Notes under the pieces: model-generated
Database searches by the model: none
What the model was told of the DNA's origin: nothing
The model's input: only the letters and a program-made list of their open reading frames with translations
Translations under genes and position numbers: made by a program
Virus record (IMG/VR): IMGVR_UViG_3300025889_000461
Span: 1 to 34,252 of that record
Length of the DNA stretch: 34,252 bases
Source of the DNA: a virus
Direction: 5' to 3' (one strand)
Part shown: positions 1-14,616 of the stretch, piece by piece
Numbering within the stretch: the stretch's first letter is position 1
How the letters are laid out: each line of letters opens with the position of its first letter

Positions 1-498
1 ATCGGGGCGGAATCCTGCCCGGTGCGTGTATGCGGTCCACCCTGCGGCTTCGCTCAAAAGCTCGTCCCAAACCTCAGGCGGCACGGCCCCGGGGTCTCCG
101 TATGTGCCCACGCGCACCATGCGGCCCCGCCCCATGTCCGCCGCGCTTTGCTGCACATAAAGGCCGCGCAAGTAAGCTTTCCAGATAGACAAAACACCCT
201 GACCAAGAACGACATAGCATGTCCGCCCCTTGGCTTGTTTTGCGACCGGGTCCGATGTCGGGATGCCCCGGTGCTGGCAGGTGCCGCAAATCGCCTCATC
301 CGCCCCGGTTTTGCTGGCCGTTAGCGGGTCCATGTCATCCCGCAAGATGTAAGTTTGCAGCATCTCGCCCGTCTTTTTGTTCCGCTTGGAATAGGTCGCA
401 AGGACCACGATAGGCGAGCCGTCTATCAAGGACGGGCCCCGATAGATCACGCCCCGCAAATTTGTTTCCCCCGCCCTCTTAGCTAATCCCTTTTTCAT
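1..498 (-). CDS. Conserved phage protein of unknown function, cut by the left window edge
   Basis: This leftward frame is open from an ATG at 498 to the window edge, giving 166 codons without a stop, so its C-terminus is missing. The start is preceded on the minus strand by AAAGGAG at a good distance. The protein begins MKKGLAKRAGETNLRG and contains TYILRDDMDPL, CGTCQHRG and SIWKAYLRG. I recognise this pattern from hypothetical proteins of many environmental phages, but no function is established. Cys71, Cys74, His76 and Cys94 could bind a metal ion; that is inference. It lies downstream of the hairpin terminator at 787-811, so it probably uses its own promoter within 499-760. It is certainly coding; its role is unknown. 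Confidence 0.85.
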   Translation of the reverse strand, partial: MKKGLAKRAGETNLRGVIYRGPSLIDGSPIVVLATYSKRNKKTGEMLQTYILRDDMDPLTASKTGADEAICGTCQHRGIPTSDPVAKQAKGRTCYVVLGQGVLSIWKAYLRGLYVQQSAADMGRGRMVRVGTYGDPGAVPPEVWDELLSEAAGWTAYTHRAGFRPD

Positions 499-608: not shown

Positions 609-656
609 GGCCCCCGGTCCGTGGAGCTCGTCACATAGTGCAACGGACCGGGGGCC
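609..656. repeat. Inverted repeat with a 14-bp perfect stem
   Basis: The arms are GGCCCCCGGTCCGT (609-622) and ACGGACCGGGGGCC (643-656), separated by 20 bases. There is no T-run directly after either arm, so it is not a standard intrinsic terminator. It could be a protein-binding or transcript-folding element in the leader of the leftward gene at 498. Confidence 0.6.
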
Positions 657-666
657 GGGGTCCGAT

Positions 667-759
667 GCTCTGCGGGCCCGCCGCGTCTCTTTTGTTGCTC
701 TGCGGGCCCGCCGCGCGGTTTTTTGTTGCGCGGCCTTGCGTCTCTGCGACCCCGCCGCG
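667..759. repeat. Three GC-rich direct repeat units upstream of parS
   Basis: The unit CTCTGCGGGCCCGCCGCG occurs at 668-685 and 698-715, and as CTCTGCGACCCCGCCGCG at 742-759. The core GCGGGCCCGC is a perfect palindrome in the first two copies. Each copy is followed within a few bases by a T-rich run ending in TTTTGTT. The last run leads into the parS site. The function is unknown; spacing of copies beside a centromere-like site is suggestive of a partition element. Confidence 0.55.
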
Positions 760-765
760 TCTTTT

Positions 766-781
766 TGTTTCACGTGAAACA
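766..781. promoter_or_regulatory. parS: Exact canonical parS site (ParB-binding centromere sequence)
   Basis: The 16 bases TGTTTCACGTGAAACA match the consensus chromosomal parS palindrome recognised by ParB proteins across most bacteria, with no mismatch. By my arithmetic a given 16-mer is expected about 8 times per million windows of this length with equal base frequencies. The site sits in non-coding DNA between a terminator and repeat units. No parA or parB gene is in the window, so host ParB, or a phage ParB elsewhere, would have to act on it. Confidence 0.75.
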
Positions 782-786
782 ATGAA

Positions 787-811
787 AAAGGCCCGCGAAT
801 CGCGGGCCTTT
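787..811 (-). terminator. Intrinsic terminator of the leftward cluster
   Basis: AAAGGCCCGC (787-796) pairs perfectly with GCGGGCCTTT (802-811) around a five-base loop. Read on the minus strand the stem is followed by a run of five T residues. It lies 24 bases past the stop of the last gene of the leftward cluster. It may also act on rightward transcription. Confidence 0.8.
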
Positions 812-834: not shown

Positions 835-1029
835 CTATCGGTTGTCGTATTCGTCCGCCGCTTCACAGTATGCCGCGAATGACGGGGCCTTGTTCACGTC
901 CGCCCATGATGCGCCTTGCACCTCATTGCCGACAAGCCGGAATAGATGTTCCGTGGCCGGGTCCTGATCATAGCCGCATGCAAGGTGTATCGCGCAAAAC
1001 TCGCGGTATGGGATAGCTAATTCAAGCAT
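835..1029 (-). CDS. Small phage protein of unknown function (64 aa)
   Basis: This is the last gene of the leftward cluster. Its ATG at 1029 is preceded by GGAGG with seven bases of spacing, and it overlaps the end of the gene before it by eight bases. The product is acidic (MLELAIPYREFCAIHL near the start, then DQDPATEHLF) and ends EAADEYDNR. It has no signal peptide or membrane segment. I do not recognise a family. The strong ribosome-binding site, the overlap and the terminator just after its stop support a real gene. Confidence 0.65.
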   Translation of the reverse strand: MLELAIPYREFCAIHLACGYDQDPATEHLFRLVGNEVQGASWADVNKAPSFAAYCEAADEYDNR

Positions 1030-1237
1030 GTTCCGCCTCCGCCCATTTCCAGCCTATTTCATGAAACCTCCGGCCAAGGATCGAATGATCCTTGGCCATG
1101 ATGCTATAGATACGGTTGGCCCCTGCGCGTGTCGGGTATAGGCAACCGCGCGTTAGCGCGGTCACCCATTCGTTCTTCTTGCGGTCCCAATAGTGCCGGG
1201 TCAAATCGTCCCGGCGGGTTGCGAAGATATAGACCAT
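1022..1237 (-). CDS. Small phage protein of unknown function (71 aa)
   Basis: I chose the ATG at 1237 (MVYIFATRRDDLTRHYW) rather than a longer reading from 1315. GGAGG sits seven bases upstream of it, inside the end of the previous gene, and the longer reading would be buried in that gene. The product is basic and rich in aromatic residues, with WDRKKNEWV and GCLYPTRAGANRIY. The spacing to the previous stop is two bases, so it is translationally linked. No family is recognised. Confidence 0.65.
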   Translation of the reverse strand: MVYIFATRRDDLTRHYWDRKKNEWVTALTRGCLYPTRAGANRIYSIMAKDHSILGRRFHEIGWKWAEAEHA

Positions 1238-1239
1238 GA

Positions 1240-1563
1240 TCAGGCCTCCATGTCGGCAAGGTATTCCGCCGGGGTTGGCAGGGTCCAACCCGGGAAAGCA
1301 TAGGCCGCTAACCATTCGGGATCAGCCGCAACCAATGACCCATACCCCCGAACCTCATTGGCGTATGTATCCCCGCCCTCAAAGCTTCCGTATGTCATAG
1401 GCGACTTGGCCCATACGAACCAACGCGCGTATGTATCCTTGGCCTCATTCTCCGGGGCCTTGTATGTCTTGCATACATGCCAGAACATGTTGCCTGCGCG
1501 GTATATTGCATAAGGCGCAGTTTGCGGACGCGACTTGCCAAAGGGGTTTTTTGTTCCGGCCAT
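1240..1563 (-). CDS. Small phage protein of unknown function (107 aa)
   Basis: The ATG at 1563 follows GGAGG with good spacing, and that ribosome-binding site overlaps the end of the preceding leftward gene. The protein is rich in Tyr and Trp (YRAGNMFWHVCKTY, ARWFVWAKSP, GWTLPTPAEYL) and looks soluble. It ends ADMEA, close to the LDMEA end of the neighbouring 77-aa protein, because both stop regions carry the ribosome-binding site of the next gene. No known domain is seen. It is probably an early-expressed accessory gene. Confidence 0.7.
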   Translation of the reverse strand: MAGTKNPFGKSRPQTAPYAIYRAGNMFWHVCKTYKAPENEAKDTYARWFVWAKSPMTYGSFEGGDTYANEVRGYGSLVAADPEWLAAYAFPGWTLPTPAEYLADMEA

Positions 1564-7164: not shown

Positions 7165-10100
7165 ATGCCGACAGCCAAAAAAGGCAGCTACGACCGGGTT
7201 CGTGCGGCCGCCGAGAATGTCGCACGGAGCAAGACCAAGTCAAAAACCGTCGTCGCGCCAAAGAAGGCGGTGATTGCGGGCCAGCCGCACATGCTGGCCT
7301 ACATCAACAAGGACGAGCGGCGGCTTTTGAAGGCCTTGGGCGGCGCTGACATCCCCGGCCCGGCCGGGATTCGGTCCTTCCCTCCGTCTGGCGACCGTGG
7401 CGGCAGGGGCGGCTCTTCGGGAGGTTCTGCTGGCGGCTCCGCGGGTAAAGACCGCGACCGTCAGGGCGGTGGAAACGTCGGAGCAGGAAACGCTGGCGGC
7501 TCCGCTGCGGGTAAAGACCGCGACCGTCAGGGCGCGGGCAACGCCGGAGCGGGCAACGCCCCGAGCAGGGGTGGCGGCAGCACCGCGAGCAACGACCGTG
7601 ACCGTCAGGGCGGCAGCAACACTGCGAGCAGCAGTCGCGACCGCGACCGCCAAGCAGCGGCTGACAAGGCGGCAGCCGATAAGGCGGCAGCCGATAAGGC
7701 GGCAGCCGATAAGGCGGCAGCGGAGAAAGCCACCCGCGACAGAATTGCTGCCGCTGAAAAAGCCGCCGCTGAAAAAGCAGCGGCCGATAAAGCCGCCGCT
7801 GAAAAAGCAGCGGCCGAGAAGGCCGCCCGTGACAAGATTGCCGCCGCTGAAAAAGCCGCCGCTGACAAGGCGGCAGCCGAGAAGGCCGCCCGTGACAAGA
7901 TTGCTGCCGCTGAAAAAGCCGCCGCTGAAAAAGCCGCGGCCGACAAGGCGGCGGCCGACAAGGCGGCCGCTGAGCAGGCGGCCCGTGACAAGATTGCTGC
8001 CGCTGAAAAAGCCGCTGCCGCGAAGGCTGCTGAAAAAGCGGCCGCAGACAAGGCGGCCGCTGAGCAGGCGGCCCGTGACAAGATTGCTGCCGCTGAAAAA
8101 GCCGCCGCTGCCGCCACCCCGGCCGCGTCTACCGCGTCTTCCGGTACAGGCATGACGTTCGGTATGAACACGAGGCCGACGGCTGGTGTGGTTGTCGACA
8201 CCCCGGCCGGGCCGCAAACGGTATCCGCGACTTCCAGTGCCGCCAACTTGCAGTCCACCCCTGCCGCGACGTCTCCGACGTTCGGCATAAACACGCGCCC
8301 GACGACCGATGTGGTTGTCGACACCCCTGCTGGGCCGCAGACTGTCTCCGCTCTTTCCAGCGCCGCCAACTTGCAGTCCACCCCTGCCACGACGTCTCCG
8401 ACGTTCGGTATAAACACGAGGCCGACGGCTGGTGTGGTTGTCGACACCCCTGCCGGGCCGCAAACGGTCTCCGCTCTTTCGAGTGCTGCCAACTTGCAGC
8501 CAACCCCTGCCCCGACGTCTCCGACGTTCGGTATAAACACGAGGCCGACGATTGGCTCCGTTGTCGACACCCCTATCGGTCCTCAGACGGTTACGCCCTC
8601 CACGGCTCAGTCTGTTACCTACGCCGCTCCGACCACGGCAGAACTCGCCTCTCAGCTCGCCACCGAGCGAGCGCAGGCGGCGACCGCCGCGCAGGCGGCC
8701 GTAGATCAGGCTACGATAGACAGGCAACGCCAGAATGAGGCAAGTGGGATTCTGGCAAGTGCCCCCGAAGGCCTCAACAGAGCCACTGCCTATCAGCTTG
8801 GGCAGGCGGCCGGGCCGTCCTTGGTCTCTACTGCGCTTGAGGCCGGGGCCGGTTTGGGTATTGAGACCCTTGGAAACTTGGTGGACGTTGTGGGGAACGC
8901 CTTCAACCCCGGGGCGGGCACGGTTGGCGTTGGCTACAATACCGGGCAGGTTGATCCCGGCCTCGCTGCCGCTGTAACGGGCACGAGACCCGGCGCGGTG
9001 CAATCGGTAGCCGCGTTCCCTGAGTCCTACACACCCAACGCCCTTAACTCTCTTGCGGAGTCCATCCAAGGCTATGGAAGTAATCTCCGCGACACCGCCC
9101 TCGAGTCCTACGCTACGAACTTCCCGGAGGCTAACCTCGCCCGCACGGGCGACATCGTCTCAACGGACATCTTTGGGAACGTCAGCATCAACCCGATGTC
9201 CGCGTTCACTCAAGCTCTGGACGCTCTCCCGGGAACTGTGATGGCTCTGGCCCCCGGCGCAGTGCTGGGCCCTGCCGGATTTGCTCTCGGCGGTGCCGGG
9301 ATGACGGTGGGGGAAGTGGCGGGAGATGCTGCGGATATCGCCTATCGGGACGCCATCGCAAGAGGCCTCTCCCCGCAGCAGGCACAAGCAGTCGCCGACC
9401 AAGCTGCCTTGAACGCCGCTCCGGCGGCCGCCGCAGTGGGCGCTGGTTCGGGGATTTTCTCAGGCCTTGGGAGCATCCCGTCCAGAGTTGCGGGCCAGAT
9501 GGTTGAAGAGGGTATCACGGAGGGGATCGCGGAGCCCACGATCTCACAGGCTGGCGCGACCACGGCAGCCGGGAGAAACCTTTCCACCGACGACATCAGC
9601 GGGAGCCTTAACGCGGGGATTATCGGCGGTCTTTTGGGCGGCGGTGCTACGGCTGCTCTGGCAAACGCTGCCTCGGCTGCCTCGGCTGCCACACCTGCCT
9701 CTCGCCCCGACAGTGGTGGTATCGCATCAATTTCTCCCTCCGCCCCCTCCGCCCCGGCTTCTCGCCCCGACAGTGGTGGTATCGCATCAATTTCTCCCTC
9801 CGCCCCTGCGGCCCCTGAGTCGGTCGTCTCGGTGGCGTCTAGGCCGGAGACCTCGGTGTCCCCCGAGCCGGAAATCGCTACAACATCTAGGCCCGAGCCC
9901 ACCATTTCGGTCGTCCCCGAGCCCACCATTTCGGTCGTCCCCGAATCCGTCACCCCCATGGTCTCTAGGCCTGCGGCCGCCATGACTTCCACGCCGGAGG
10001 CCACTGCGCCTTCTCGGCCGGGGATTTCTGTTGCTCCCGAGTCGGTTGTCTCCGTTACTCCCGAGCCTATTATCTCTGTAGCCCCGCCAAGCAACAGCGG

Positions 10101-10626
10101 GATTTCGAGCGTTGCCGGTATTTCTTCGGTCCCTGTCCCAAGCAGCACCGGAATTGCAAGCGTTGCCCCGACGGCTCCCACGATTTCGACAGCCCCGACA
10201 GCTCCCACGATTTCGACAGCCCCGACGGCTCCCACGATTTCGACAGCTCCAACAGCCCCGACGGCTCCCACGATCTCGACGGCGCTGACAGCTCCAACAG
10301 CTCCAACAGCTCCAACAGCCCCTCCGGACACAGTTCTTCCGACCGGGCCGACCGGGCCGACCGGGCCGACCGGGCCGACAGCTCCAACAGGCCCCGACGA
10401 CGGAAAGACAACGACCCCACCAACGGGTCCCAAGAGCTGTCCTCCGGGCTATCGGCTTTATACGTTCACTGACGGAAGTACCACTTGTATTCCCACCACA
10501 AGTGGTACAGGAATGGTTCGTCCAATCGTTGCGCCGTTCTACCAGCCTGTTGGTGGGCGGAGAGCCCAAGGTTACGAGCCTTTTATTGGGATCGGCGCGT
10601 TGCCGACAACCCAAAAACAGCCATAG
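7165..10626 (+). CDS. Very long Ala-rich repeat protein, presumed internal head/ejection protein (1153 aa)
   Basis: The ATG follows GAAGGGGAAATGCC. The order of parts is: a basic start; Gly/Arg/Asp-rich repeats (about 70-160); a long Ala/Lys/Glu/Asp region (about 162-315) built from [12 protein letters not shown]-type units and resembling the TolA helical domain; four 41-residue units starting TFG(M/I)NTRPT (from residue 331); an Ala/Gly-rich part with membrane-like stretches near [15 protein letters not shown] and [16 protein letters not shown]; a Ser/Pro-rich part; Thr/Pro repeats; a short collagen-like GPT run; and a compact end with two Cys. Its neighbours are a transglycosylase and terL. 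This suggests a protein that spans the envelope during DNA ejection, but no homologous family is certain. Confidence 0.65.
7651..8110 (+). repeat. In-frame repeats encoding an Ala/Lys/Glu helix
   Basis: Units of GCTGAAAAAGCC, GCAGCCGATAAG and related 12-base words follow each other for about 460 bases and encode AAA(D/E)KAAAEKA. Longer blocks ending CCCGTGACAAGATTGC recur several times. The DNA repetition keeps frame and would be prone to slippage, so length may vary between isolates. Confidence 0.85.
8155..8613 (+). repeat. Four 123-bp tandem repeats (41-residue units)
   Basis: Units begin at 8155, 8278, 8401 and 8524, each encoding TFG(M/I)NTRPT followed by VVDTP(A/I)GPQTV. The first three are near-identical; the fourth diverges after about 25 residues. 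The DNA similarity is high, pointing to recent duplication. Confidence 0.9.
9700..9806 (+). repeat. Perfect 47-bp direct repeat with 60-bp period
   Basis: Bases 9700-9746 and 9760-9806 are identical and encode [16 protein letters not shown] twice. It lies in the Ser/Pro-rich part of the long protein. Confidence 0.85.
10478..10508. repeat. Perfect 11-bp inverted repeat near the end of the long gene
   Basis: GTACCACTTGT (10478-10488) and ACAAGTGGTAC (10498-10508) flank nine bases. It is inside coding sequence, about 120 bases before the stop and 140 before the terL start. No T-run follows, so a classic terminator is unlikely; an RNA processing or protein-binding site is possible. Confidence 0.5.
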
Positions 10627-10648
10627 TTAACTAGCCGACAAGGAAGCG

Positions 10649-12121
10649 ATGAGCCTCGATACCCTCCCAGAAGCAGCCCTCAAGGAGCTGCTTCTGCTGA
10701 CAGAAGCGAAACGGAAGCTGGACCTGCGCGAGAAAGCGCAGGACAGCTTCATGGCGTTTGCCCACCACGTCTACGAGAACTTCATCGAGGGCCGACACCA
10801 CAGGATCATCGCCGAAAAGCTCGAGCGCGTCGCGCGCGGGGAGCTCAAGCGCTTGATCATCAACATGCCGCCTCGTCACTCGAAGTCGGAGTTCGCATCG
10901 TACCTGATGCCTGCGTGGTTCCTTGGCCGGAACCCAAAGCTCAAGATCATTCAGGCCACGCACAACACAGAGCTCGCCGTCCGTTTCGGCCGCAAGGTCC
11001 GAGACCTGATCGACAATCCCCAGTACGCAGAGATTTTCCCGAAGACGAACCTCAAGGAAGACTCAAAGTCCGCGGGCCGATGGCAGACAGACCAGCTCGG
11101 CGAATACTTTGCTGCGGGTGTAGGCGCGGCTGTGACGGGCCGCGGTGCCGACCTCTTCATCATCGACGACCCGCATTCGGAACAGGACGCCTTGTCCGAG
11201 ACGGCGTTTGACCACGCCTACGAATGGTACACCTCTGGCCCCCGCCAGCGTCTGCAGCCCGGCGGCGCGATCATCGTCGTTATGACCCGCTGGGGTAAGA
11301 AAGACCTGACGGGCCGCCTGCTTCAGGCTCAGGGTTCGGACATCATGTCGGACCAGTGGGAGGTCGTGGAGTTCCCGGCAATCATGCCGTCGGGCGATCC
11401 GCTCTGGCCGGAGTTCTGGGAAAAGAACGCGCTTTTGTCGATCAAGGCCTCGCTCCCGGCGGCCAAGTGGTCGGCCCAGTGGCAACAACAGCCGACGACT
11501 TCCGACGCAGGCATCATCCGAAAGGACTGGTGGCGCATGTGGGAGAAGGAAGATATCCCGCGTTTGGACTACGTCCTTCAGGCCTACGATACGGCCTTCT
11601 CCAAGAAGGAGAGCGCCGACTATTCGGCGATCACGACGTGGGGAATCTTCAAGCCGGAGATAGATGGCCCCGACCACATCATCCTGCTCGACGCTCAGCG
11701 GGGCCGATGGAGCTTTCCGGAGCTAAAACAGGTCGCCTTCGACGAGCACGAGTACTGGCAGCCTGACATGGTTCTCGTTGAAGCCAAGGCCACAGGTCAG
11801 CCGCTCATCGACGAGTTGCGCCTGAAGAACATCCCTGCCCTTGGCTTTTCGCCGGGTGGCCGAGGTGGCGGCCGGGACAAGGTGAGCCGGATGCACATGG
11901 TTGCGCCGCTCTTCGAGGCGGGCATGGTCTGGGCCCCAGAGGCCAAGAGTTTCGCGGACGACGTGATCGAAGAAGTCACTTCTTTTCCCAATGGCGATCA
12001 TGACGACTTTTGTGATAGCATGACGCTGGCTCTAATGCGTTTCCGTCAGGGCGGATTTGTGGCACTTGAAGGCGAAGACGTAGGGGATGATCCTATCCCA
12101 CGCAAACGGGAGTACTACTGA
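10649..12121 (+). CDS. terL: Terminase large subunit
   Basis: This 490-residue protein is the packaging motor ATPase and nuclease that loads DNA into the prohead through the portal. The Walker A-like loop is PPRHSKS (residues 74-80). The Walker B is LFIIDDP with Asp173 and Asp174, and the coupling motif is VVMTRW. The C-terminal RNase H-like nuclease part shows YDTAFSKKESADYSA, VLVEAKATGQPL and HDDFCDSM, which supply the expected acidic residues. AAGGAAGCG precedes the ATG. Its stop overlaps the portal start by one base. I found no recognisable small terminase gene immediately upstream. Confidence 0.97.
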   Translation: MSLDTLPEAALKELLLLTEAKRKLDLREKAQDSFMAFAHHVYENFIEGRHHRIIAEKLERVARGELKRLIINMPPRHSKSEFASYLMPAWFLGRNPKLKIIQATHNTELAVRFGRKVRDLIDNPQYAEIFPKTNLKEDSKSAGRWQTDQLGEYFAAGVGAAVTGRGADLFIIDDPHSEQDALSETAFDHAYEWYTSGPRQRLQPGGAIIVVMTRWGKKDLTGRLLQAQGSDIMSDQWEVVEFPAIMPSGDPLWPEFWEKNALLSIKASLPAAKWSAQWQQQPTTSDAGIIRKDWWRMWEKEDIPRLDYVLQAYDTAFSKKESADYSAITTWGIFKPEIDGPDHIILLDAQRGRWSFPELKQVAFDEHEYWQPDMVLVEAKATGQPLIDELRLKNIPALGFSPGGRGGGRDKVSRMHMVAPLFEAGMVWAPEAKSFADDVIEEVTSFPNGDHDDFCDSMTLALMRFRQGGFVALEGEDVGDDPIPRKREYY

Positions 12122-14616
12122 TGGCTGTCGCACCTCGTATGGCAGGTTCCTTGACCGATAGCGGCTTCATGCAGGGCGGCATGGACGAGGACCTTCCTCA
12201 GGTCGAGTTCTCGATGCCCGGTGCCGAGGATTTCTCCGGCGGCGCGTTGGTCACGGAAACCGAGGACGGCGGCGCGTTGGTGCAGGCCGTCTCGCAGGCG
12301 CTCATGGCGATGGAGTCCGAGGTCCAAATCCCGCACGACGCCAACCTCGCCGAATACCTCGAGGATTCCTACCTCGGAGAGATCGCCTCCGACCTGACGG
12401 CCGCCTACGAGGACGACCTCCTGTCCCGCGAAGAGTGGGAAGAGGCCTACACCAACGGCCTCGATCTTCTCGGCGTCAAGACCATCGAGCGCACCGAGCC
12501 CTTCCAAGGCGCATCGGGCGTGACACACCCGCTCATCTCCGAGTCCGTCACCCAGTTTCAGGCGCAGGCCTATAAGGAGCTCCTGCCCGCAGGCGGCCCG
12601 GTCAAGACAGGCGTCATGGGCATGCAAGACCCAGAGCGCGAGGCTCAAGCCGCCCGGGTCCGGGACTTCATGAACTACGAGATCACCGAGGTCATGGAAG
12701 AATATGACCCGGACATGGACCAGCTCCTGTTCTATCTGCCCCTTTCAGGCTCCTGCTTCAAGAAGGTTTACTGGGACGTTGGTCTGCAGCGCGCGGTGGC
12801 CAAGTTCATCCCGGCTCAGGACCTTGTCGTTCCGTACATGGCTACGGACCTCTACACGACACCGCGAGCTACGCACCGCCTGCGGATGGACAAGAACGAA
12901 ATTCGCAAGATGCAGGTCGCCGGGATGTACCGGGACATCGACTTGATCGCCAGCGACGAGCCCGTCGATCAAGTGCGGGAGAAGGTCGACGAGCTGCAGG
13001 GCACGTCCAAGACTTACATGGACAAGACCTACACGCTGCTCGAGATGCACGTGAATCTTGATCTTGAGGGTTTTGAGGACCTCGACCCAGAGGGAAATCC
13101 CACGGGTATCGAGCTGCCGTATATCGTCACCATCGACAAGGCGTCGTCCAAAATCCTGTCGATCCGCCGTAACTTTGAAGAGGGCACGGACCTCGCAAAG
13201 AAGCGCCAGTACTTCGTCCACTACAAGTTCATGCCGGGTCTGGGCTTCTACGGCTTTGGCCTGATCCACATGATCGGCGGTCTCGGCCGTGCTTCGACGT
13301 CGATCCTGCGCCAGTTGATTGACGCGGGCACTCTGGCAAACCTGCCGGGCGGCTTTAAGGCCAAGGGTATTCGGGTCCGTAACAGCGACGAGCCGATCCG
13401 GCCGGGCGAGTTCCGAGACATCGACGCCCCCGGCGGGGACCTCCGCAACTCGATTATGCCGCTGCCCTACAAGGAGCCGAGCGCAACTCTGGCGCAACTG
13501 CTTGGCAGCCTGATCGACGCGGGCCGCCGCTTCATTTCGCTGGCGGACGAAAAGACCGGGAACATGAACCAAGAGGCCCCGGTCGGAACCACGGTTGCTC
13601 TTCTCGAGCGCGGCATGAAGGTCATGTCGGCGATCCACAAGCGCCTCCATTACGCACAGAAGACCGAGTTCCGCATCCTTGCGCGCATTTTTGCAGACAA
13701 CCTGCCGCAAGAATACCCCTACGAGGTTGCCGGGGCGGAGCGGACGGTGTTCGCTGCAGACTTCGACGACCGTATCGACGTGATCCCGGTCAGCGATCCG
13801 AACATCTTCTCTATGGCGCAGCGCGTCACGCTGGCCCAGACCCAGCTTCAACTGGCCCAGTCGGCACCGCAGATGCACAATCTGCATGCCGCTTTCCGTC
13901 GCATGTATCAGGCCCTTGAGGTCCAGAACATCGAGGAAATCCTGCCTCCTCCTCCGGAGCCGCAGCCCACTGATCCAGTGACCGAGAACGCACGTATCTT
14001 GATGGGCGAACTGGCACAGGCTTTTCCGGACCAGTTGCACGACATCCACATCCAGCTCCACGTGGCCTTTATGAAGACCCCGCTGGTTGCCACATCTCCG
14101 GCCGCGATGGGCGTGTTCTACGCGCACATCCTCGAGCACATCGCGCTCAAGGCTCGGAACGACGTCCAGAGCCAGATCATGCAACTCATGGAGACGGCGC
14201 AGGCGCAAGCCTTGGCGGGACAATCGAATCCGCAGATGGTTCAGCGCATGGTGATGCAGGCTCAGCAGCAGATGCAGGACCCGGCGCAGGTCGAGCAGCT
14301 TGTCGCCATCCGCCAGAAAGAGCTCATGGACGAGTTGCTGCCGATGATTTCGCCGCAAGGACCCGATCCGATGGCCGACCCGCTGGTGATGATCCGCATG
14401 CGGGAACTCGAGCTGAAGAACAAGGCCGAAGACCGCAAGACCGAGATGGAAAAGGCCCAGCTTTTGCTGGACGCCGCCAACCAGAAGCAGCGCGCAACCA
14501 CCGACGCCGCCCGCTTGGAGCTGCAGGAGCAGATCGCCGACGAGCGCAACGAGGTGAACCGCGAGCGCATCGAGGTCCAACGGCAATCGTCCGTGGCAAA
14601 ACAGAGGGCTTTCTGA
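12121..14616 (+). CDS. Portal protein (P22-like, long form)
   Basis: At 831 residues it is in the range of the large P22-type portals. The portal forms the twelve-subunit ring at one capsid vertex through which DNA is packaged and ejected. Typical segments are [18 protein letters not shown] and the conserved region around [18 protein letters not shown] (residues 200-220). The last third is helical and Gln/Met-rich (for example [15 protein letters not shown]), continuing into a long charged coiled-coil tail, as in portals with a barrel extension. Its place directly after terL and before the scaffold-like and capsid genes supports the call. Confidence 0.9.

Follow-up and report, generated by a model that had tools for sequence, protein, structure and literature searches.

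The stretch of DNA analysed here, referred to as the window, is the whole of the linear IMG/VR record IMGVR_UViG_3300025889_000461 (34,252 bp). It comes from a tailed phage, with genes for a terminase large subunit (TerL), a portal, a major head protein, a GroES-like protein and an endolysin. The TerL shares 52-59% identity with those of the Pelagibacter phages HTVC027P and HTVC023P, phage 023Pt_psg01 and phage DSL-LC04, and the TerL, portal, GroES-like and head genes follow the same order as in DSL-LC04. Both the related TerL and the shared portal/MCP/GroES gene order place the window among the HTVC023P/HTVC027P/DSL-LC04-like phages. The genomes of these isolate relatives measure 57-62 kb and the long metagenomic relatives about 56-62 kb; the record itself is probably incomplete, a piece of a genome of about that size. 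Contamination by host chromosome or a prophage was ruled out for the window, given its terminase, portal and head proteins and relatives that are themselves phage contigs. The alphaproteobacterial host proposed in the preliminary description was not borne out: the isolate relatives infect Pelagibacter, and another relative is labelled Gammaproteobacteria. The sole host lead from genome contigs lies in a Gammaproteobacteria MAG, whose 61-kb contig NYWC01000010.1 (L255, L256) has a TerL of the window's family at both ends and is a mis-binned, terminally redundant phage contig.

Near the left end of the window, the minus strand reads through three small ORFs, a terminator, a parS site, GC-rich repeats, an inverted repeat and a palindrome into gene P0001 (Table 1). 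As the preliminary description had it, the parS site sits in non-coding DNA beside GC-rich repeats and a terminator, between the leftward 64-aa ORF and the leftward P0001. This order of genes and the terminator, which is separated from parS by 5 bp, make the site intergenic and insulated by the terminator. Folding the minus-strand RNA of positions 760-836 gave a z of -4.25, and the folded RNA comprised the terminator plus the parS palindrome. The palindrome was ruled out as a second terminator because a T-run follows it on neither strand. The tandem repeats adjoining parS approximate GCTCTGCGGGCCCGCCGCG and carry T-runs.

Table 1. Features around the parS site, and the terminase gene, in the 34,252-bp window
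Feature	Position	Strand	Basis or remark
Gene following parS, P0001 (PHROG 2554, function unknown); continues past the left end	3..498	-	
Palindrome CTTGTTGATAATCAACAAG, which may be a promoter or operator region for P0001	563..581	-	Seen directly; function inferred
Inverted repeat	609-656		Between the GC-rich repeats and the palindrome
Three GC-rich 25-bp repeats adjoining parS	668..766 (668-692, 698-722, 742-766)	.	
parS, perfect 16-bp palindrome TGTTTCACGTGAAACA	766..781	.	Exact match; identical in L212, L227, L228, L229
Intrinsic terminator of the leftward genes, 11-bp GC-rich stem and T-run	787..811	-	Pattern scan and RNA fold
64-aa ORF, final gene ahead of the terminator, member of the parS-carrying module	835..1029	-	Nearly identical in parS-bearing relatives
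71-aa ORF P0003, part of the parS-carrying module	1022..1237	-	Seen in three relatives only, all with parS
107-aa ORF P0002, variable neighbour directly outside the parS module	1240..1563	-	Comparison with relatives
Terminase large subunit (TerL)	10649..12121	+	PHROG 38, E = 6.5e-106; parS recurs upstream of terL in its family

The 16-mer TGTTTCACGTGAAACA is identical to the chromosomal parS consensus (PMC10197239). The zero-mismatch match had already been claimed and was confirmed by a scan of the entire record, which found no second match at up to 3 mismatches. Base models of 0th, 1st and 2nd order gave 2.2e-6, 4.4e-6 and 2.5e-6 expected exact copies in the window, respectively. In IMG/VR, at least 120 loci contain the exact parS, compared with 11 and 1 for two control palindromes made by scrambling its letters. 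A chance match was ruled out by this enrichment over the control palindromes together with the expected copy number of approximately 2-4e-6.

The enrichment extends to isolate phages. Used as a BLAST query with AT-padded ends, the parS 16-mer matched 356 of 50,697 isolate-phage records and a scrambled control matched 1, although the 356 records are not a lineage count because they include redundant relatives as well as many 'Listeria phage' contigs that lack annotation and probably represent host DNA. The many parS-bearing, unannotated contigs named 'Listeria phage LM 4-11-1' and 'LM 4-14-1' resemble host chromosome contamination in the collection. The parS-bearing isolates include phages of Lactobacillus, Bacillus, Roseobacter (DSS3P8), Microbacterium, Arthrobacter and Gordonia as well as Microviridae. 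DSS3P8 has an exact intergenic parS near the start of its record (L265:841-856); its six match positions correspond to about three sites counted on both strands, and it would be a convenient test isolate. Twelve parS-like sites, mostly TGTTTCACGTGGAACA, are packed into 5 kb (8906-13863) of the 117-kb viral contig L087, which gave no ParB match.

Within the window's own TerL family, parS has a preferred place. Among the parS-bearing loci listed (at least 120), 34 encode a TerL related to that of the window, 26 of them at least 45% identical. The site precedes the terL start codon by 0-150 bp in 14 of the 25 parS-bearing contigs of this family in which the distance was measurable, whereas random placement in those 25 contigs gave a mean of 0.58 near terL and a maximum of 5 in 20,000 trials; this bias is not created by the parS-based selection of contigs alone, although related contigs are not fully independent. 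A second terL search was not conditioned on parS and used a subfamily at least 75% identical to its reference with at least 150 bp available upstream. Here parS was found within 250 bp of terL in 8 of 22 subfamily contigs, as opposed to 1 of 47 in a more distant group from the same search. The eight contigs differ both in the distance between terL and parS (35-145 bp) and in the flanks; within the subfamily, the site reads TGTTCCACGTGAAACA in one carrier, and another carrier has a pair of sites spaced 8 bp apart. The site is missing from several near-complete genomes of the TerL family, and we read the overall pattern as repeated gain and loss of the site with one region preferred. Conservation at the same place, suggested as a check in the preliminary description, thus did not hold across the wider family, where parS tends to lie immediately upstream of terL; the window site departs from this and is approximately 10 kb upstream of terL. 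In L110, whose TerL is 73% identical to that of the window, parS is downstream of terL. Three contigs with a distant TerL (L017, L044 and L053, about 28% identity) each carry 3-5 exact parS copies no more than a few kb from terL, an arrangement resembling a small centromere cluster. HTVC027P carries CGTTTCACGTGAAACA at L252:2413-2428, about 4 kb upstream of terL and in frame within an unannotated nuclease-like ORF, where it encodes FHVKH; a syntenic homologue of the window parS was ruled out here by the coding frame and the lack of homologous neighbours. The literature searched, with incomplete coverage, yielded no description of a large family of aquatic phages devoid of ParB in which parS recurs near terL.

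A position just upstream of terL, where promoter elements are expected, raises the question of whether parS is a regulatory element dependent on host ParB, which once loaded would spread over neighbouring promoters and dampen or time transcription, of P0001 in the window and of terL in the 14 relatives. The window site also lies between a terminator and the upstream region of the next gene, and repression of promoters beside high-affinity parS is reported in Pseudomonas aeruginosa (PMC5521831). The geometry argues against this reading, as the window parS precedes the start of P0001 by approximately 270 bp and is 185 bp away from the palindrome that may act as promoter, an arrangement that is not common to the window site and the terL-proximal sites. 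We regard gene control as a rather unlikely role for the site.

The close relatives bear on whether the site has any present role. Four of them (L212, L227, L228 and L229; five contigs including the window) carry the exact parS at the same place. Compared with the window, L212, L227 and L229 are 93-97% identical over the left 1-3 kb and L228 is 92-95% identical in two pieces; because all flanks are about 92-97% identical, conservation of parS among the five contigs is weak evidence of constraint. The suggested same-place conservation is thus seen in four very close relatives and is lost in the next four (L204, L205, L230 and L232), which retain the GC-rich repeats and P0001 and have neither parS nor the rest of the module, i.e., the terminator and the two small ORFs. 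The alignments of these four to the window all end at position 766, the edge of parS, and P0003 was found in only three contigs, all with parS. As the module and parS are present or absent together, the site was gained or lost with the module and is accessory. It could in principle be a passenger, without present function, in a module that recombination brought in, possibly from the origin region of a host; the location of parS at the edge of a module that relatives miss, and the restriction of the module site to very close relatives, are both compatible with this. Passengers would not be expected to recur at another preferred place with diverged flanks, as parS does in the TerL family, or to show such strong enrichment across phages. 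In addition, the 64-aa ORF of the module had no Pfam match and no copy among isolate phages, the set that was searched. Altogether, we consider a functionless passenger improbable.

We then asked which protein might read the site. The ParB models TIGR00180 and PF02195, which both match in 10 of 14 control genomes, gave no match in the window (a 34-kb fragment of an incomplete genome), in its close relatives or in the four 57-62-kb isolate relatives HTVC027P, HTVC023P, 023Pt_psg01 and DSL-LC04. PF02195 also gave no match in a further 22 contigs of the TerL family, several near-complete metagenomic relatives included. Neither the ParA-type ATPase model AAA_31 (PF13614) nor a phage-integrase model matched in 12 records, the window and the isolate relatives among them. 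The search for parA and parB elsewhere in the genome, recommended at the outset, turned up no phage-encoded ParB or ParA in the window and near-complete relatives, and no integrase or partition genes pointing to a plasmid-like lifestyle were found in them. More broadly, only 5 of 37 long parS-bearing viral contigs had a ParB-like match and 32 had none. An own ParB or ParABS system in the missing part of a genome of about 56-62 kb, with parS as its cognate centromere as in phage-plasmids, is highly improbable in view of the lack of ParB/ParA-type matches in the isolate relatives, of ParB matches in near-complete metagenomic relatives and of an integrase, and of a window site that follows the chromosomal consensus and not one specific to plasmids. 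If parS is active, its partner is thus host ParB, with the reservation that part of the genome is unseen.

Several known systems provide a frame for this arrangement. ParB-CTP loads at parS and then slides as a clamp (PMC12704722). A phage with a host-type parS is already known as a kind from Bacillus phage phi29, whose chromosome is reported to be entrapped in spores by Spo0J (ParB) (Meijer 2005, as cited in PMC9437464). In phi29, TGTTTCACGTGGAACA occurs four times, each copy differing from the window's parS at one position. These lie at 10445, 15903, 17243 and 18760 (L266), the related observation in B103 being sites at 10120 and 15611 (L267), and several are inside structural or lysis genes. 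The window phage resembles phi29 in carrying a chromosomal-type parS and, as predicted here, in leaning on host ParB; it differs in its unrelated family, its one site instead of four and its presumably non-sporulating Gram-negative host, for which spore entrapment would bring no pay-off. With chromosomal ParABS systems it shares the identical 16-bp palindromic consensus, whereas its site is on a phage, not near oriC, in single copy and without linked parAB. Phage-plasmids (P1, N15 and some mycobacteriophages) likewise have a partition site on a phage genome, but they encode their own ParA/ParB, usually with own-type sites, in contrast to the window, in which no ParA/ParB genes were found. A further parallel is 'lytic deferment' in alphaproteobacterial phages (PMC9437464), whose DNA also has binding sites for a cell-cycle protein of the host. 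That protein, CtrA, acts as a transcription factor, whereas the presumed partner of the window phage is the chromosome-partition clamp ParB.

Judged from its sequence and setting, the window parS is probably a functional, accessory site of genuine chromosomal type and a putative loading site for host ParB. We favour, with reasonable confidence, the view that the phage uses it as an entry point for host ParB, which would most likely bind the site and is probably borrowed because there is no visible phage protein to read parS. In the mechanism we propose, host ParB-CTP would bind the 16-mer and close into clamps, which would slide onto neighbouring phage DNA and mark the phage genome like a host origin region. 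The likeliest benefit, in our view, would be that the partition machinery of the host positions or retains an infecting genome during slow or stalled infection, comparable to phi29 and Spo0J. That selection acts on positioning or retention and not on local gene control is a more tentative suggestion. The hijacking of the host system put forward in the preliminary description has gained plausibility from the family pattern, the phage-wide enrichment and the phi29 precedent, although we still infer both the binding of ParB and the benefit. Some observations speak against a role for host ParB: parS is patchy, being absent from the repeat-sharing L204, L205, L230 and L232 and from several near-complete genomes of the family; the window has a single site, while chromosomes often use parS clusters; and that site is some 10 kb from terL, away from the position preferred in its family.

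It is conceivable, if doubtful, that a large aquatic and apparently non-integrating phage family has gained host-type parS time and again, with a preference for the position directly upstream of terL, and loads host ParB clamps, perhaps with host SMC, at the late/packaging region, which would tie late gene expression or packaging to the segregation machinery of the host. The pattern of parS recurrence makes the host-ParB idea directly testable at one 16-bp site in an isolate phage. If phages without ParB routinely recruit host ParB, the host centromere system would be a shared resource of infection, well beyond phi29 and sporulation.
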